From Planktothricoides sp. SR001 (lineage in GTDB: Bacteria > Cyanobacteriota > Cyanobacteriia > Cyanobacteriales > Laspinemataceae): DNA of 64,000 nucleotides. The translations under genes and the position numbers were made by a program. The stretch spans positions 1-64,000 of the forward strand of contig NZ_LIUQ01000031.1 of the NCBI RefSeq assembly GCF_001276715.1, written 5' to 3'. Below, piece by piece: positions 2,164-6,453 of this stretch (position 1 is the first letter of the stretch; each line of letters opens with the position of its first letter). Under the pieces are notes generated by a model. The model ran no database searches. It worked only from the letters and a program-made list of their open reading frames with translations, and was not told where the DNA came from.

Positions 2164-3024
2164 ATGGCTACACATCAAACATTAAATTTAGGGGATATTC
2201 AGCTTTCTTATTGGGAATGGAACCAAGGGAAAGAACCATTGCTGTTGTTGCATGGGTTGGCTAATCATGCCCTGGTTTGGGCAAGTTTGGCCGAATATTT
2301 ACGCGATCGCTATCATATTGTGGCGGTGGATATGCGCGGACATGGTGATAGCAGTAAGCCCAAAACTGGCTATACCTTTAAAGAGGCGATCGCGGACTTA
2401 GAAGCATTATTAGACCATTTAGGGTGGCAATCTACCCATATCGTCGCTCATTCTTGGTGTGGCAAACTAGCCCCAATTTGGGCAGTAAAATCCCCCCATC
2501 TAATTCGCAGCATGGTATTAGTTGACCCGATTTTCATCACCAAAATGCCAGCGGCCATGAAACTCACCTTTCCTATTTTATATCGAGTCTTACCATCCTT
2601 AAAAGAAATTGAACCAGTCCCCACATATCAAGCCGCAGAAAACCGCGCCAAAGCATTACCCCTTTATCAAGGATGGAGTCTGGAACAACAACAAATATTT
2701 CAAACCGGAATAGAACAAAAACCCGACGGAACTTGGGCAAGTAAATGTACCATTGAAGCCCGAAACGAGATATTTGAAGAAGTAATGCGCGTCCCCGGGC
2801 TTACCGAACCGATTCAGATTCCCACTTTATTTGTGCAACCGGAAAAAGGGGTTAATCGGATGGAATGGCAACTCAAACCTTACAAAACGTACTTAAAAAA
2901 ATTACGCATTTGCCAAGCCCCAGGCAACCATTGGCCATTCTTAGTAGAACCGGCAGCATTTAACCGCATTGTCGAAGAATTTCTAGCCGAACAACAACCC
3001 CAGAAACCGGGTTTCTTCAGATAA
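2164..3024 (+). CDS. Alpha/beta hydrolase fold protein
   Basis: Predicted cytosolic serine hydrolase of 286 residues; substrate unknown. The fold shows in the oxyanion HG pair (residues 30-31), the DMRGHGDS turn (56-63), a nucleophile-elbow-like AHSWCG (95-100, Ser97) and a C-terminal GNHWPF that supplies the likely catalytic His. The elbow departs from the usual G-x-S-x-G: the first Gly is Ala and the second is Cys. It may therefore have altered activity, or belong to a subfamily that tolerates this. The last residues (QKPGFFR and stop) are encoded by the first palindrome of the repeat cluster that follows, so the native C-terminus has probably been replaced or extended by repeat DNA. The ATG at 2164 is the only good start. 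Confidence 0.85.
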   Translation: MATHQTLNLGDIQLSYWEWNQGKEPLLLLHGLANHALVWASLAEYLRDRYHIVAVDMRGHGDSSKPKTGYTFKEAIADLEALLDHLGWQSTHIVAHSWCGKLAPIWAVKSPHLIRSMVLVDPIFITKMPAAMKLTFPILYRVLPSLKEIEPVPTYQAAENRAKALPLYQGWSLEQQQIFQTGIEQKPDGTWASKCTIEARNEIFEEVMRVPGLTEPIQIPTLFVQPEKGVNRMEWQLKPYKTYLKKLRICQAPGNHWPFLVEPAAFNRIVEEFLAEQQPQKPGFFR

Positions 3025-3429
3025 ACTTTGCCACCAACCAACAACTTTTATAGAAACCCGGTTTCTTCTTTGCCGAAGTCAAATAACCCAAAAACCCAAC
3101 CCCAGAAACCGGGTTTCTTCAGACAACCTTTGCCACCAACCAACAACTTTTATAGAAACCCGGTTTCTTCTTTGCCGAAGTCAACTCCCCAGAAACCGGG
3201 TTTCTGCTGTAAATATCAAAGTTATCTGTTTTTAGCGAAAAAGAAACCCGGTTTCTTGAGGTTACTTGCGGGGGTAGAGAAACCGGGTTTCTGTTGTGGA
3301 TATCAAGGTTATCTGTTTTTAGCGAACAAGAAACCCGGTTTCTTGAGGTTGCTTGCTGGGGTAGAGAAACCGGGTTTCTTTAGACAAACTTTGCCACCAA
3401 CAAACAAATGTCATAGAAACCCGGTTTCT
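3002..3429. repeat. Paired-palindrome repeat cluster I (5 pairs)
   Basis: Ten copies of the 15-bp palindrome AGAAACC(G/C)GGTTTCT start at 3002, 3052, 3104, 3154, 3191, 3242, 3278, 3329, 3364 and 3415. They form five pairs, each a G-centred copy followed 50-51 bp later by a C-centred copy. The DNA between paired copies is of two types: a CAGACAA..TTTGCCACCAAC type and a TATCAAAGTTATCTG..AGCGAA type. The cluster overlaps the 3' end of the hydrolase gene. It reads as an open frame only because the repeats lack stops in that frame; no gene is called in it. Confidence 0.95.
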
Positions 3430-3494
3430 TTTTTGCCGAAGTCGAAGCGCCAGAAACCCGCTAGAATAAAATAGCCCTTACCCACATCAAGCAG

Positions 3495-5516
3495 ATGAGT
3501 CTGTGCATCAACCCCAACTGCCAAAAACCGCAAAACCCTGACAATCAGCTATTTTGCCAAACCTGTGGATCGGAACTTCTCCTCGCAGGACACTACAAAG
3601 TCACTCAACTCCTCAGTGACAAAGGAGGTTTTGGCAAGACTTACCAGGTGGAAGATTTATATGACAATAACAAAGTCAAAGTCTTAAAAGTGCTGACTTT
3701 GAACATTGCCAAAGCGGTGGAACTTTTCCAACAAGAAGCAGCAGTTCTCAAGCAACTACGGCATCCAGGAATTCCCCAGGGAGATGGATATATTGAATTT
3801 TTTCCCAAAAATAGCCAAAATCCCGTGCATTGTTTTGTCATGCAATATATCGAGGGGATGGACTTAGAAGAATATCTGGGGCAACGGGGGCGTCCCATTG
3901 ACCAAAAGATGGCTTTAAAGTGGTTAAAAGAAATTGCGGAAATTCTCCAAGTGGTGCATGGAGAGAATTTTTTCCACCGGGATATTAAGCCTTCTAATAT
4001 TATGCTCCAACCTAATGGCAAGTTGGCCTTAATTGATTTTGGCACAGTCAGGGAAATGACCGGGACTTATATGGCTAAACAAAATAGTGGGGCAATTACG
4101 AAAATTAGTTCCGCAGGGTTTACCCCACCGGAACAAGAGAATAACCGGGCAGTTCCCCAGTCGGATTTTTTTGCCTTGGGGCGAACTTTTGTCTATTTGC
4201 TGACGGGGAAACTGCCCACTGACCCGGCAATTTATGATTCCTATAATAATGAGTTAAAGTGGCGGGGGTTTACTAAAGAGATATCGCCACTGTTGGTAGA
4301 TTTTATTGATGAGTTGATGGCAGGAAAAGCCAGTCAGCGACCGGATAATCCCGGAGTGATTTTACAGAGATTAGCAGAAATAGAATATCAGCTTTATCCG
4401 CCACCAAAACCGATACCAAAACCGCAGCCACCAAAACCAAAGACTCAAACAGTTCCTCCTACTCTTGTTTCTCAGCCATTTTTGAGTCGCCGCAAGTTGA
4501 TTAAAATTGCGGGGTTTGCGGGAGTGGGAATTATGGGAGGGTATGTGTGGCAGGAAGTTTGGTCAGATCCCCCCCAACCCCCCCTTAAAAAGGGGGGGCA
4601 AGAAGATTCTCCCCCCGTTTCAAGCGGGGGGCAAGAAGATTCTCCCCCCGTTTCAAGCGGGGGGCAAGAAGATTCTTCCCCCTTTTCAAGGGGGGCAGGG
4701 GGGGATCGCTTTTCTTTTACAACGGTGAAAGTAAATGATCGAGGAGAAAAAATTAACTCCGAATCACTGCAAGCAGAATATTCCAGAGAAGACTTAGGTA
4801 ATGGTGTCACTCTGGATATGGTGGCTATTCCAGGGGGGACATTTATGATGGGTTCCCCAGAAACAGAGAAAGAGAGAAGTAGCAGCGAAGGGTCGCAGCG
4901 TTCGGTGACAGTACCCGCTTTTTTTATGGCTAAATACCCCGTGACTCAGCAGCAGTGGCAAGCAGTGATGGGAAATAATCCCTCTAATTTTAAAGGGCTA
5001 AATCGTCCGGTGGAAAATGTTAGCTGGAATGATGCAGTGGCATTTTGCCAAAAGTTATCGCAAAAAACGGGTAAAAATTATCGTTTGCCTTCGGAAGCAG
5101 AATGGGAATATGCTTGTCGCGCAGGAACTACCACCCCTTTTTATTTTGGGGAAACGATTACTACGGATTTAGCGAATTACGACGGAAACTACACTTATGG
5201 TAATGGGCCAGAAGGGGTATATCGTAGGGAAACTACTGATGTAGGCAGCTTTCCGCCCAATGCTTTTGGACTCTACGATATGCACGGGAATGTCTGGGAA
5301 TGGTGTGCAGACCATTGGCATGAAAATTATAATGGTGCGCCGACCGATGGCAGTGCTTGGACATCTCGGGGAAATTCTAATCTGAGGCTGTTGCGTGGCG
5401 GCTTCTGGTACGACGGTCCCTGGTTTTGCCGTTCGGCGCATCGTAACTACCACGTTCCGGGCCTTCGGTATCGCTTTGTTGGCTTCCGTATTGGGATCTC
5501 CCTGCCGAGAACTTAA
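3495..5516 (+). CDS. Zinc-ribbon / serine-threonine protein kinase / FGE-sulfatase fusion, possible DGR target
   Basis: A 673-residue multidomain protein. A four-cysteine ribbon (Cys4, 9, 21, 24) is followed by a Hanks-type kinase (glycine-rich GGFGKTY near 43-50, HRDIKPSN near 161-168, DFG near 180). Next comes a proline-rich linker, a single hydrophobic segment near 333-352 that should anchor it in the membrane, and a low-complexity SPPVSSGGQED repeat. The C-terminal formylglycine-generating-enzyme-like/C-type-lectin-fold domain (residues ~433-670) begins MVAIPGGTFMMG and contains the EWEYACRAG and MHGNVWEWC motifs. The kinase should be cytoplasmic and the FGE domain on the other side of the membrane. 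The last ~40 residues match the RGG-W...CRSA-R...R...GFR frame of diversity-generating-retroelement variable regions. The linker repeat is made of inverted C/G-run repeats read in frame. Confidence 0.9.
   Translation: MSLCINPNCQKPQNPDNQLFCQTCGSELLLAGHYKVTQLLSDKGGFGKTYQVEDLYDNNKVKVLKVLTLNIAKAVELFQQEAAVLKQLRHPGIPQGDGYIEFFPKNSQNPVHCFVMQYIEGMDLEEYLGQRGRPIDQKMALKWLKEIAEILQVVHGENFFHRDIKPSNIMLQPNGKLALIDFGTVREMTGTYMAKQNSGAITKISSAGFTPPEQENNRAVPQSDFFALGRTFVYLLTGKLPTDPAIYDSYNNELKWRGFTKEISPLLVDFIDELMAGKASQRPDNPGVILQRLAEIEYQLYPPPKPIPKPQPPKPKTQTVPPTLVSQPFLSRRKLIKIAGFAGVGIMGGYVWQEVWSDPPQPPLKKGGQEDSPPVSSGGQEDSPPVSSGGQEDSSPFSRGAGGDRFSFTTVKVNDRGEKINSESLQAEYSREDLGNGVTLDMVAIPGGTFMMGSPETEKERSSSEGSQRSVTVPAFFMAKYPVTQQQWQAVMGNNPSNFKGLNRPVENVSWNDAVAFCQKLSQKTGKNYRLPSEAEWEYACRAGTTTPFYFGETITTDLANYDGNYTYGNGPEGVYRRETTDVGSFPPNAFGLYDMHGNVWEWCADHWHENYNGAPTDGSAWTSRGNSNLRLLRGGFWYDGPWFCRSAHRNYHVPGLRYRFVGFRIGISLPRT
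4567..4711. repeat. C-run/G-run inverted repeats read in frame
   Basis: Four consecutive inverted repeats of the CCCCCC-TTNAAA-GGGGGG type, separated by CAAGAAGATTCT. The two middle units repeat with a 33-bp period, that is 11 codons. Because the period is a multiple of three they sit in frame in the kinase gene and encode repeated SPPVSSGGQED blocks between the membrane segment and the FGE domain. Confidence 0.9.
5378..5495 (+). other. Candidate DGR variable repeat (VR) at the 3' end of the kinase-FGE gene
   Basis: The last codons encode LLRGGFWYDGPWFCRSA and, further on, VGFRIG. In ordinary and DGR-diversified FGE/CLec domains the template form is RGGSW-NNN-CRSA-R-NNN...R-N...GFR. Here nearly every position expected to be Asn carries another residue (Tyr, Asp, Gly, Phe, His, Val, Leu), and those codons end in C or T (TAC, GAC, GGT, TTT, CAT, CAC, GTT, CTT, TAT). 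That is what adenine-directed mutagenesis of AAC/AAT template codons would give. The segment is also more GC-rich than the rest of the gene and is followed by a pyrimidine-rich tract. No template repeat or reverse transcriptase is in this window, so the call rests on pattern alone. Confidence 0.5.
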
Positions 5517-5552
5517 TTTCCCTCTGCTCTTTTTCCCTCTTTCCCTCCCCCC

Positions 5553-5580
5553 TTCGCGCTTTGCGCGAAAAATTTTTTTT
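5553..5580 (+). terminator. GC-rich hairpin plus T-run after the kinase-FGE gene
   Basis: A TTCGCGC / GCGCGAA stem (5553-5559 with 5563-5569) has a 3-base loop and is followed by a long T-run. It is a good rho-independent terminator about 36 bp after the stop. A small GC-rich hairpin just 3' of a variable repeat is also a known feature of DGR targets, so it could serve both roles. Confidence 0.7.
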
Positions 5581-5640
5581 TCAAAAATGGCTGCCAACCT
5601 TATCCGAAAATAAAATATATCCGCGTTTGTCCCTAAGAAA

Positions 5641-6348
5641 AGAAACCGGGTTTCTGTGGTGATATCCGCAGTTATCTGTTTTTCGCGAAAAAGAAACCCG
5701 GTTTCTGGGGGTTTCTTGCGGGGGTAGAGAAACCGGGTTTCTTTTGTGGATATCCGCAGTTATCTGTTTTTTGCGAAAAAGAAACCCGGTTTCTGGGTCC
5801 CAACAGGAGGCGATCGCGACACAAGAAACCGGGTTTCTGTTGTGGATATCCGCAGTTATCTGTTTTTTGCGAAAAAGAAACCCGGTTTCTGGGGGTTGCT
5901 TGCGGGGGTAGAGAAACCGGGTTTCTGTTGTGGATATCCGCAGTTATCTGTTTTTTGCGAAAAAGAAACCCGGTTTCTGGGGGTTTATTGCGGGGGTAGA
6001 GAAACCGGGTTTCTGTTGTGGATATCCGCAGTTATCTGTTTTTTGCGAAAAAGAAACCCGGTTTCTGGGGGTTTCTGGGGGTTGCTTGCGGGGGTAGAGA
6101 AACCGGGTTTCTTTTGTGGATATCCGCAGTTATCTGTTTTCAGCGAAAAAGAAACCCGGTTTCTGGGTCCCAACAGGAGGCGATCGCGACACAAGAAACC
6201 GGGTTTCTGTGGTGGATATCAGAAGTTATCTGTTTTTTGCGAAAAAGAAACCCGGTTTCTGGGGGTTGCTTGCGGGGGTAGAGAAACCGGGTTTCTGTTG
6301 TGGATATCCGCAGTTATCTGTTTTTTGCGAAAAAGAAACCCGGTTTCT
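5641..6348. repeat. Paired-palindrome repeat array II (8 pairs)
   Basis: Sixteen copies of AGAAACC(G/C)GGTTTCT in eight G-centred/C-centred pairs. The G-centred copies start at 5641, 5728, 5824, 5912, 6000, 6098, 6194 and 6282; the C-centred partner lies 51 bp (first pair) or exactly 52 bp (the other seven) downstream. The internal sequence is nearly constant (TGTGGATATCCGCAGTTATC then TGTTTTTTGCGAAAA). Between pairs there are two alternating linkers, GGGGGTTGCTTGCGGGGGTAG-like and GGGTCCCAACAGGAGGCGAT-like, giving periods of 87-98 bp. The array begins shortly after the kinase gene and ends inside the DUF5615 toxin remnant. Confidence 0.95.
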
Positions 6349-6360
6349 GGGGGTTTCTGG

Positions 6361-6453
6361 GGGGTGGGAAAAGATCGCGCATTCTGCCACCAATACATTA
6401 ACATCTTCATCTAAGTACAAACGAATAAATAAACTATTCACAATACTATTCAC
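6361..6453 (-). pseudogene. Truncated DUF5615 PIN-like toxin
   Basis: The frame begins with a GTG that overlaps the stop of the DUF433 gene (TGTGA). It reads VNSIVNSLFIRLYLDEDVNV followed by LVAE, the N-terminus of DUF5615 PIN-like toxins (IRLYLDEDVNVLVA, first acidic active-site residues included). After about 25 residues homology stops and the frame runs into the palindrome array, translating repeats only. A full-length member is about 110-120 residues, so roughly three quarters is missing. The gene order (DUF433 antitoxin then overlapping DUF5615 toxin) is typical, which supports the identification of this stub. Confidence 0.75.

Follow-up and report, generated by a model that had tools for sequence, protein, structure and literature searches.

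A kinase-FGE gene of Planktothricoides sp. SR001 as a remote target of a diversity-generating retroelement, with a candidate address tract behind cyanobacterial variable repeats

In the BPP-1 diversity-generating retroelement (DGR), a complex of reverse transcriptase (RT) and Avd copies template RNA with errors at A, and the cDNA replaces a variable repeat (VR) (PMC3240598, PMC12875486). BPP-1-type sites have an IMH-like 3' end and, 4-34 bp from the VR, a GC hairpin with a 7-10 bp stem and a 4-nt GRNA loop (PMC3240598). Remote kinase-CLec (C-type-lectin-fold) targets are already known in cyanobacteria, where 76 remote targets are listed for DGRs by Vallota-Eastman et al. (2020; PMC7517822). 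The systems described there comprise an RT, a template repeat (TR), a CLec VR at the 3' end of the target gene, an N-terminal Ser/Thr kinase, and dispersed remote paralogues, and ligand-gated kinase signalling was proposed for the kinase-CLec proteins. Remote targeting was inferred in that paper from TR/VR similarity, with cis features only speculated on. In Trichodesmium, at least 11 of 18 TR/VR loci are hypervariable in metagenomes (Paul and Eren, 2022; PMC8867640). Nostoc punctiforme has an active DGR, with reported diversity at A sites (PMC12691664). In Thiohalocapsa PB-PSB1, VRs at loci without an RT match a distant TR at all non-adenine sites, and antigen sensing within conflict systems was proposed (Dore et al., 2024; PMC10907252).

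Here, we describe a target gene in a 64,000-nt stretch of the Planktothricoides sp. SR001 genome (GCF_001276715.1, contig NZ_LIUQ01000031.1, positions 1 to 64,000, forward strand; the whole stretch is called the window). The 3' end of the kinase-FGE gene at 3495-5516 is almost certainly the VR of a remote (trans) target of the genome's single DGR, and the gene is an additional member of the class described in PMC7517822, whose architecture it shares. What is added to that paper here is a pair of congeneric genomes whose differing TRs show that the gene is overwritten in trans, together with a specific tract in cis that accompanies the VRs. As in Thiohalocapsa, VRs match a distant TR at non-adenine sites, although that system belongs to another phylum and has other target architectures. 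Trichodesmium, like Planktothricoides, is a cyanobacterium with remote targets; activity was shown there by read recruitment, and overwriting since the species split is shown here by a comparison of two species.

The variable repeat, its template and the target protein

The gene (3495-5516, + strand; 673 aa) encodes a Ser/Thr kinase domain (Pkinase, aa 43-284, 3621-4346, +; PF00069, 102 bits) and an FGE-sulfatase domain of the CLec fold (aa 441-666, 4815-5492, +; PF03781, 196.6 bits), as identified by ORF and Pfam searches, and its protein terminates in LLRGGFWYDGPWFCRSAHRNYHVPGLRYRFVGFRIGISLPRT. A sequence-only reading of the window had proposed a DGR target at the 3' end of this gene, and comparison with the TR bears this out: the VR occupies 5387-5514 (+), with 86% identity to a 128-bp TR on another contig (G000:C88:32013-32140, where G000 is this genome), and within its first 112 bp substitutions affect 17 of the 27 adenines of the TR, with all 85 remaining positions left unaltered. 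Over 129 bp, 18 of 19 mismatches fall on TR adenines (hypergeometric p = 3e-13), and a chance origin of A-restricted mismatches is excluded. For the other three VRs of the genome, the p values are 4e-8, 1e-9 and 9e-6. In the first 112 bp, non-A differences to the TR number 0 in the VR on contig C88, 0 in that on C144 and 4 in that on C159. Within the TR match, the hypermutated span runs from the first to the last A-site substitution (5402-5478, +), followed by an IMH-like invariant 3' end (5479-5516, +). The sole non-A difference in the match is C -> A at 5510, a difference fixed between all VRs and TRs of this genome and of a congeneric genome, G001. Transfer therefore stops within about TCTCCCTGCCGAG, since 5510 is the first VR/TR difference common to all VRs, and this position is the putative IMH/IMH* boundary.

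Relative to the TR, 13 codons of the VR are changed, and in 12 the change is at A. Seven were Asn codons (AAC/AAT) in the TR, which have become Phe, Asp, Gly, Phe, Leu, Tyr and Phe and all end in C or T, as had been predicted for former Asn codons. Further changes are Arg>Trp, Asp>Val, His>Arg and Ile>Val. The residues earlier listed in place of Asn (Tyr, Asp, Gly, Phe, His, Val and Leu) are mostly right, except that His already stands at its place in the TR and that Val has arisen from Asp or Ile. The VR is also GC-richer than the rest of the gene, as had been remarked (58.6 vs 45.8%), but this is weak evidence and no proof of a VR, because 4% of 128-nt windows of the gene are equally GC-rich.

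The genome is a 7.07-Mb draft (99.5% complete) in which the window is contig C94. A Pfam RT search yields five RT-like stretches, of which the DGR RT lies on C88 (G000:C88:31030-31671; RVT_1, 75.7 bits; motifs IGNLTSQ and YVDD), with cyanobacterial DGR RTs that adjoin TR/VR pairs as its relatives. Its ORF has 387 aa and a TTG start, Met36 being the likelier start, as in the sister genome G001. An Avd gene (bAvd PF22296, 64.8 bits) overlaps the RT ORF, the TR follows downstream of the RT, and a local kinase-FGE target lies beyond the TR in opposite orientation. The near-copy that the sequence-only reading had expected elsewhere in the genome, differing only at its A positions and next to an RT, is thus present beside RT and Avd, and a DGR-type RT, an Avd and a TR/VR pair differing at TR adenines are found together. 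A whole-genome TR search gives exactly four VRs (C94, the window; C88; C144; C159), all at the ends of kinase-FGE genes. As the reading had said of the window, there is no RT or template nearby: whole-genome TR and RT searches match no place on C94 other than the VR itself. With the TR only on C88 and the VR on C94, the DGR acts on the window gene at a distance, and the window protein is a remote variable protein, separated from the TR by at least about 37 kb as computed from the contig ends of the draft genome with contigs assumed to abut. Judged by eye, a REP/IS200-type transposase look-alike lies near the remote target on C144 (L012 4479-5039, -), and an IS607-like resolvase with a TnpB remnant near that on C159 (L013 8418-9735, -); such transposase-like neighbours agree with the transposon-linked dispersal of remote targets proposed in PMC7517822. 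A conserved, structured-looking spacer 3' of the TR (CAGARYTG...ATGGGAAT...CGGGCGTG...GAAGAGTCCAG...TTCCGGTGAT) is seen in nearly all cyanobacterial DGRs (L011, L042-L089); Rfam returns only a sub-threshold tRNA-like match on the TR region of this genome, leaving the spacer without a family.

Relatives of known structure for the FGE domain are Pseudomonas PvdO (5hha), Treponema TvpA (2y3c, E 5e-29) and the formylglycine-generating enzyme (SUMF1, 1y1e). PvdO and TvpA have the CLec/FGE fold in common with the window protein, although their matched chains have no kinase domain; TvpA is itself a DGR variable protein, and its C-terminus aligns with the window VR. The variable residues of the window protein sit in its C-terminal PF03781 domain, with the CLec fold assigned from sequence matches. 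SUMF1 belongs to the same FGE-sulfatase family, but the window protein lacks the full catalytic Cys pair: in the SUMF1 alignment, at what we take to be the positions of this pair, one of the two is a variable residue, Asp in the window VR. Enzymatic FGE activity is thus unlikely, and the CLec domain is likely a binding domain rather than an enzyme. Between the kinase and FGE domains, a Tat-like SRRKLIK motif and a moderately hydrophobic segment (aa 331-355, 4485-4559, +; motif and hydropathy scan) form a candidate membrane anchor or export segment, also found in the G001 orthologue; the 19-residue hydropathy maximum is only 1.18 in the window protein and 1.79 in the orthologue, and the same scan detects neither motif nor segment in the other three targets. 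From motif and hydropathy, it is plausible, as the sequence-only reading had supposed, that the FGE domain of the window kinase lies outside the cytoplasm, as an external sensor of an internal kinase.

A pyrimidine tract and hairpin behind the variable repeats

Behind the window VR lie a pyrimidine tract, TTTCCCTCTGCTCTTTTTCCCTCTTTCCCTCCCCCC (5517-5552, +), and a GC hairpin, TTCGCGC-TTT-GCGCGAA (5553-5569, +), followed by an A run and then a T run; tract and hairpin had both been seen in the earlier reading. The tract is the genus variant of a cyanobacterial DGR-target tract (four genome copies; family model R1). In the genus, TTTCCCTYTRCTCTTTTTCYCTYTTTCCCT stands behind every VR, in decayed form on contig C11 of G001, and in most the GC hairpin comes next, that behind the G001 orthologue of the window gene being identical to the window hairpin. 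With up to 3 mismatches allowed, the tract occurs at exactly four places in the 7.07 Mb of G000, all behind VRs, and at three places in G001, behind three of its four VRs; a control search of both genomes with the reversed pattern gave 0 matches. The tract is absent at the TR and behind non-target FGE paralogues. The G001 C11 VR combines a decayed tract with no hairpin and three non-A mismatches, and the C159 VR has the tract, a broken hairpin and four non-A mismatches. Across the genus, an intact hairpin goes with a clean VR in 6/6 cases and a lost hairpin with an unclean VR in 2/2 (p = 0.036), which is suggestive only. The likeness to the Bordetella hairpin drawn in the earlier reading is one of kind: as in BPP-1, an IMH-like 3' end and a GC hairpin are present, but the window hairpin is not of the BPP-1 type: its stem is 7 bp long, its 3-nt loop reads TTT (AAA on the complementary strand), and 38 bp, including the tract, separate it from the VR. 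The sites described here differ from that type in their 5-7 bp stem, 3-nt loop, distance of about 30-65 bp and intervening periodic pyrimidine tract.

Of 55 cyanobacterial RT loci, 35 yielded a TR/VR pair, and 34 of these are independent. VR flanks are 81% pyrimidine, compared with 40% for TR flanks and 55% for other gene ends, and show an excess of matches at lags of 7, 8 and 15 nt (z = 11.5 for lag 7). Twenty-nine flanks align, almost gapless, to GTAGCCCTTTACnCTTTTGCCCTnTTGCCCTTT; because its starts were set by manual trimming, what the alignment establishes is the fixed spacing and not the start. A tract model built from sequence only (R1) finds flanks in loci outside its training set. Searched against whole DGR genomes, 35 of 36 inspected matches (E up to 1e-3; some are training flanks) lie directly behind a CLec C-terminus, many matches being on contigs other than that of the RT, and in five of these genomes the tract is present at 9/9 genuine VRs vs 0/14 non-VR FGE genes. 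From 99 related genomes, 30 loci were fetched, each the best match in one of 30 genomes (a few of which overlap the training set), and 29 lie behind hypervariable CLec ends, 26 called by motif and three by eye. Conservation of the tract spans RTs with about 60-70% identity. Two decayed VRs (L217, L234) have intermediate tract scores, and the L209 VR has a strong tract despite 13/20 changes at A and seven non-A mismatches. Of 50 flanks, 30 contain a perfect GC hairpin (stem of at least 5 bp, 3-5-nt loop), against an expectation of 0.6; as a target marker the hairpin alone was rejected, being common but less universal than the tract, and some perfect VRs (L067) have the tract with an unclear hairpin. 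One exact-pattern scan of viral contigs found no tract, weak evidence given the strict pattern. In Scytonema (L191, G059:C29:29761-29790), a tract is followed some 200 nt later by a second copy, which no CLec end immediately precedes.

We read the tract as an address because it is conserved across RTs, goes with VRs and not with FGE genes as such, and tends to be decayed where the VR is. From this correlative support, we propose with moderate confidence that tract and hairpin mark DGR targets. The broader rule, that cyanobacterial DGRs recognise their targets, distant genes included, by a pyrimidine tract of roughly 30-60 nt with a fixed 7-8-nt period and a GC hairpin, whose decay would end target status and which together with VR and IMH would confer it on another gene, is one we favour by a small measure. 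Tract and hairpin may instead be a transcription terminator or an mRNA 3'-end element unrelated to target recognition, which we consider possible but doubtful: a T run follows the hairpin in most members, and terminator-like hairpins are known to adjoin group IIC introns as well as DGRs (PMC3240598), whereas non-target FGE genes lack the tract, almost no copies occur elsewhere in the genomes, and decayed VRs (L217, L234, G001 C11) carry decayed tracts. A terminator role of hairpin and T run can also coexist with an address role.

A conserved pyrimidine tract of 7-8-nt period behind cyanobacterial VRs is apparently undescribed; it goes unmentioned where the open text of PMC3240598, PMC3521204, PMC7517822, PMC8144416, PMC10907252 (Thiohalocapsa), PMC12875486, PMC8867640 (Trichodesmium) and PMC6642488 deals with hairpins, IMH and downstream elements. 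The tract is a specific candidate for the feature by which cellular DGRs select targets at scattered sites. As a 39-nt fingerprint, it finds hypermutated genes without knowledge of TR or RT, a kind of target finding for which VR motifs are too weak according to PMC6642488. If the address reading is true, remote targets missed by locus-based surveys, a limit stated in PMC8144416, could be listed genome by genome, and the targeting rules of cyanobacterial DGRs would become testable.

Overwriting in trans in two genomes

The congeneric genome G001 carries four VRs and a TR of its own. Between this TR and that of G000, 21 of 112 positions differ, and at 18 of these the G000 TR has a base other than A. 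The G001 orthologue of the window gene, on contig C14, has 87% amino-acid identity to it and 95.7% nucleotide identity in the 5' half; its VR differs from the G001 TR by 13 A changes and no others, and from the G000 TR by 18 non-A differences. Three of four VRs in G001 (C14 included) and three of four in G000 have 0 non-A mismatches to their own TR, and each VR carries its own set of A changes and elsewhere matches the TR of its own genome. In the window pair, the C-terminal 42 codons have 31.7% site divergence vs 8.3% in the gene body; 27 of these codons differ, 18 with a change of amino acid, and so the orthologues do not show the same residues at the variable end; identical residues there are what the sequence-only reading had named as counting against a DGR target. 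Two other target pairs diverge by 29.4 and 28.6% in the VR vs 4.3 and 6.8% in the body, respectively, and a control pair of non-target FGE paralogues by 0.8% at the C-terminal end vs 3.0% in the body. The control copy is a tandem FGE-kinase paralogue adjoining a target (L013 2019-3911, -; L094 8280-10184, +), whose VR-like C-terminus is identical in both species and appears as a frozen non-target.

Since the VRs follow their respective, differing TRs, the window gene has been rewritten from the template of its own genome in each lineage; overwriting in trans since their split is thereby shown for both. The pair is a natural experiment for trans hypermutation, in which related genomes have different templates and the same remote gene follows its own. 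The TR itself seems to have been replaced or to be fast-evolving, with all targets carried along. The sequence just 3' of the TR core is almost identical in the two genomes (L011 and L094), despite the 21/112 core differences.

That the window gene is a former target, its VR written by the DGR in the past and now frozen, is unlikely. Two of the eight VRs in the genus do look retired, with three to four non-A mismatches and a lost or broken hairpin, but at 85 sites the window VR has no non-A mismatch, its tract and hairpin are both intact, and it has been overwritten since the lineages of G000 and G001 separated.

For a target still in use, DGR biology suggests that the error-prone complex of RT and Avd would copy TR RNA into cDNA mutagenised at adenines, which would replace the VR from its 3' IMH-like end leftward. 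The tract and hairpin would be the cis-acting address by which the element finds four scattered genes and ignores other FGE paralogues, and the address might be read through an open sense strand or by binding of an RT-Avd-RNA particle. The product would be a family of kinases with a repeatedly reshuffled ligand-binding CLec face. A tract that acts as an antisense-strand G-quadruplex or by pairing with TR RNA is highly improbable: antisense G runs recur every 7-8 nt in many flanks, but a canonical G4 is present in only 4/34, and no conserved complementary stretch occurs within 300 nt of the TR, so neither readout is supported. A reading of the VRs that does without retrohoming, by passive paralogy or by ordinary gene conversion between FGE paralogues, can be set aside with near certainty, for although the targets are paralogues and some cassette copying must once have spread VR and 3' flank, the window mismatches to the TR are restricted to adenines, the VRs have individual A-change sets yet all match their own TR elsewhere, and the conversion-like effect extends neither past the edges of the VR nor to non-target FGE paralogues.

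Dense AGAAACCGGGTTTCT palindromic repeats lie on both sides of the window gene (3000-3446 and 5636-6363), and in G001 the target gene is on C14 and the alpha/beta hydrolase that is its neighbour in the window (2164-3024) is on C46. Given the flanking repeats and separate G001 contigs, the target gene has apparently been relocated between repeat clusters. Palindromic repeats are also inserted in frame in the kinase-FGE linker of the window gene (4570-4707; CCCCCCTT...AAGGGGGG), and the linker of the C88 target (L011 8518-10749, -) contains tandem PVIPAQAGIHS repeats.
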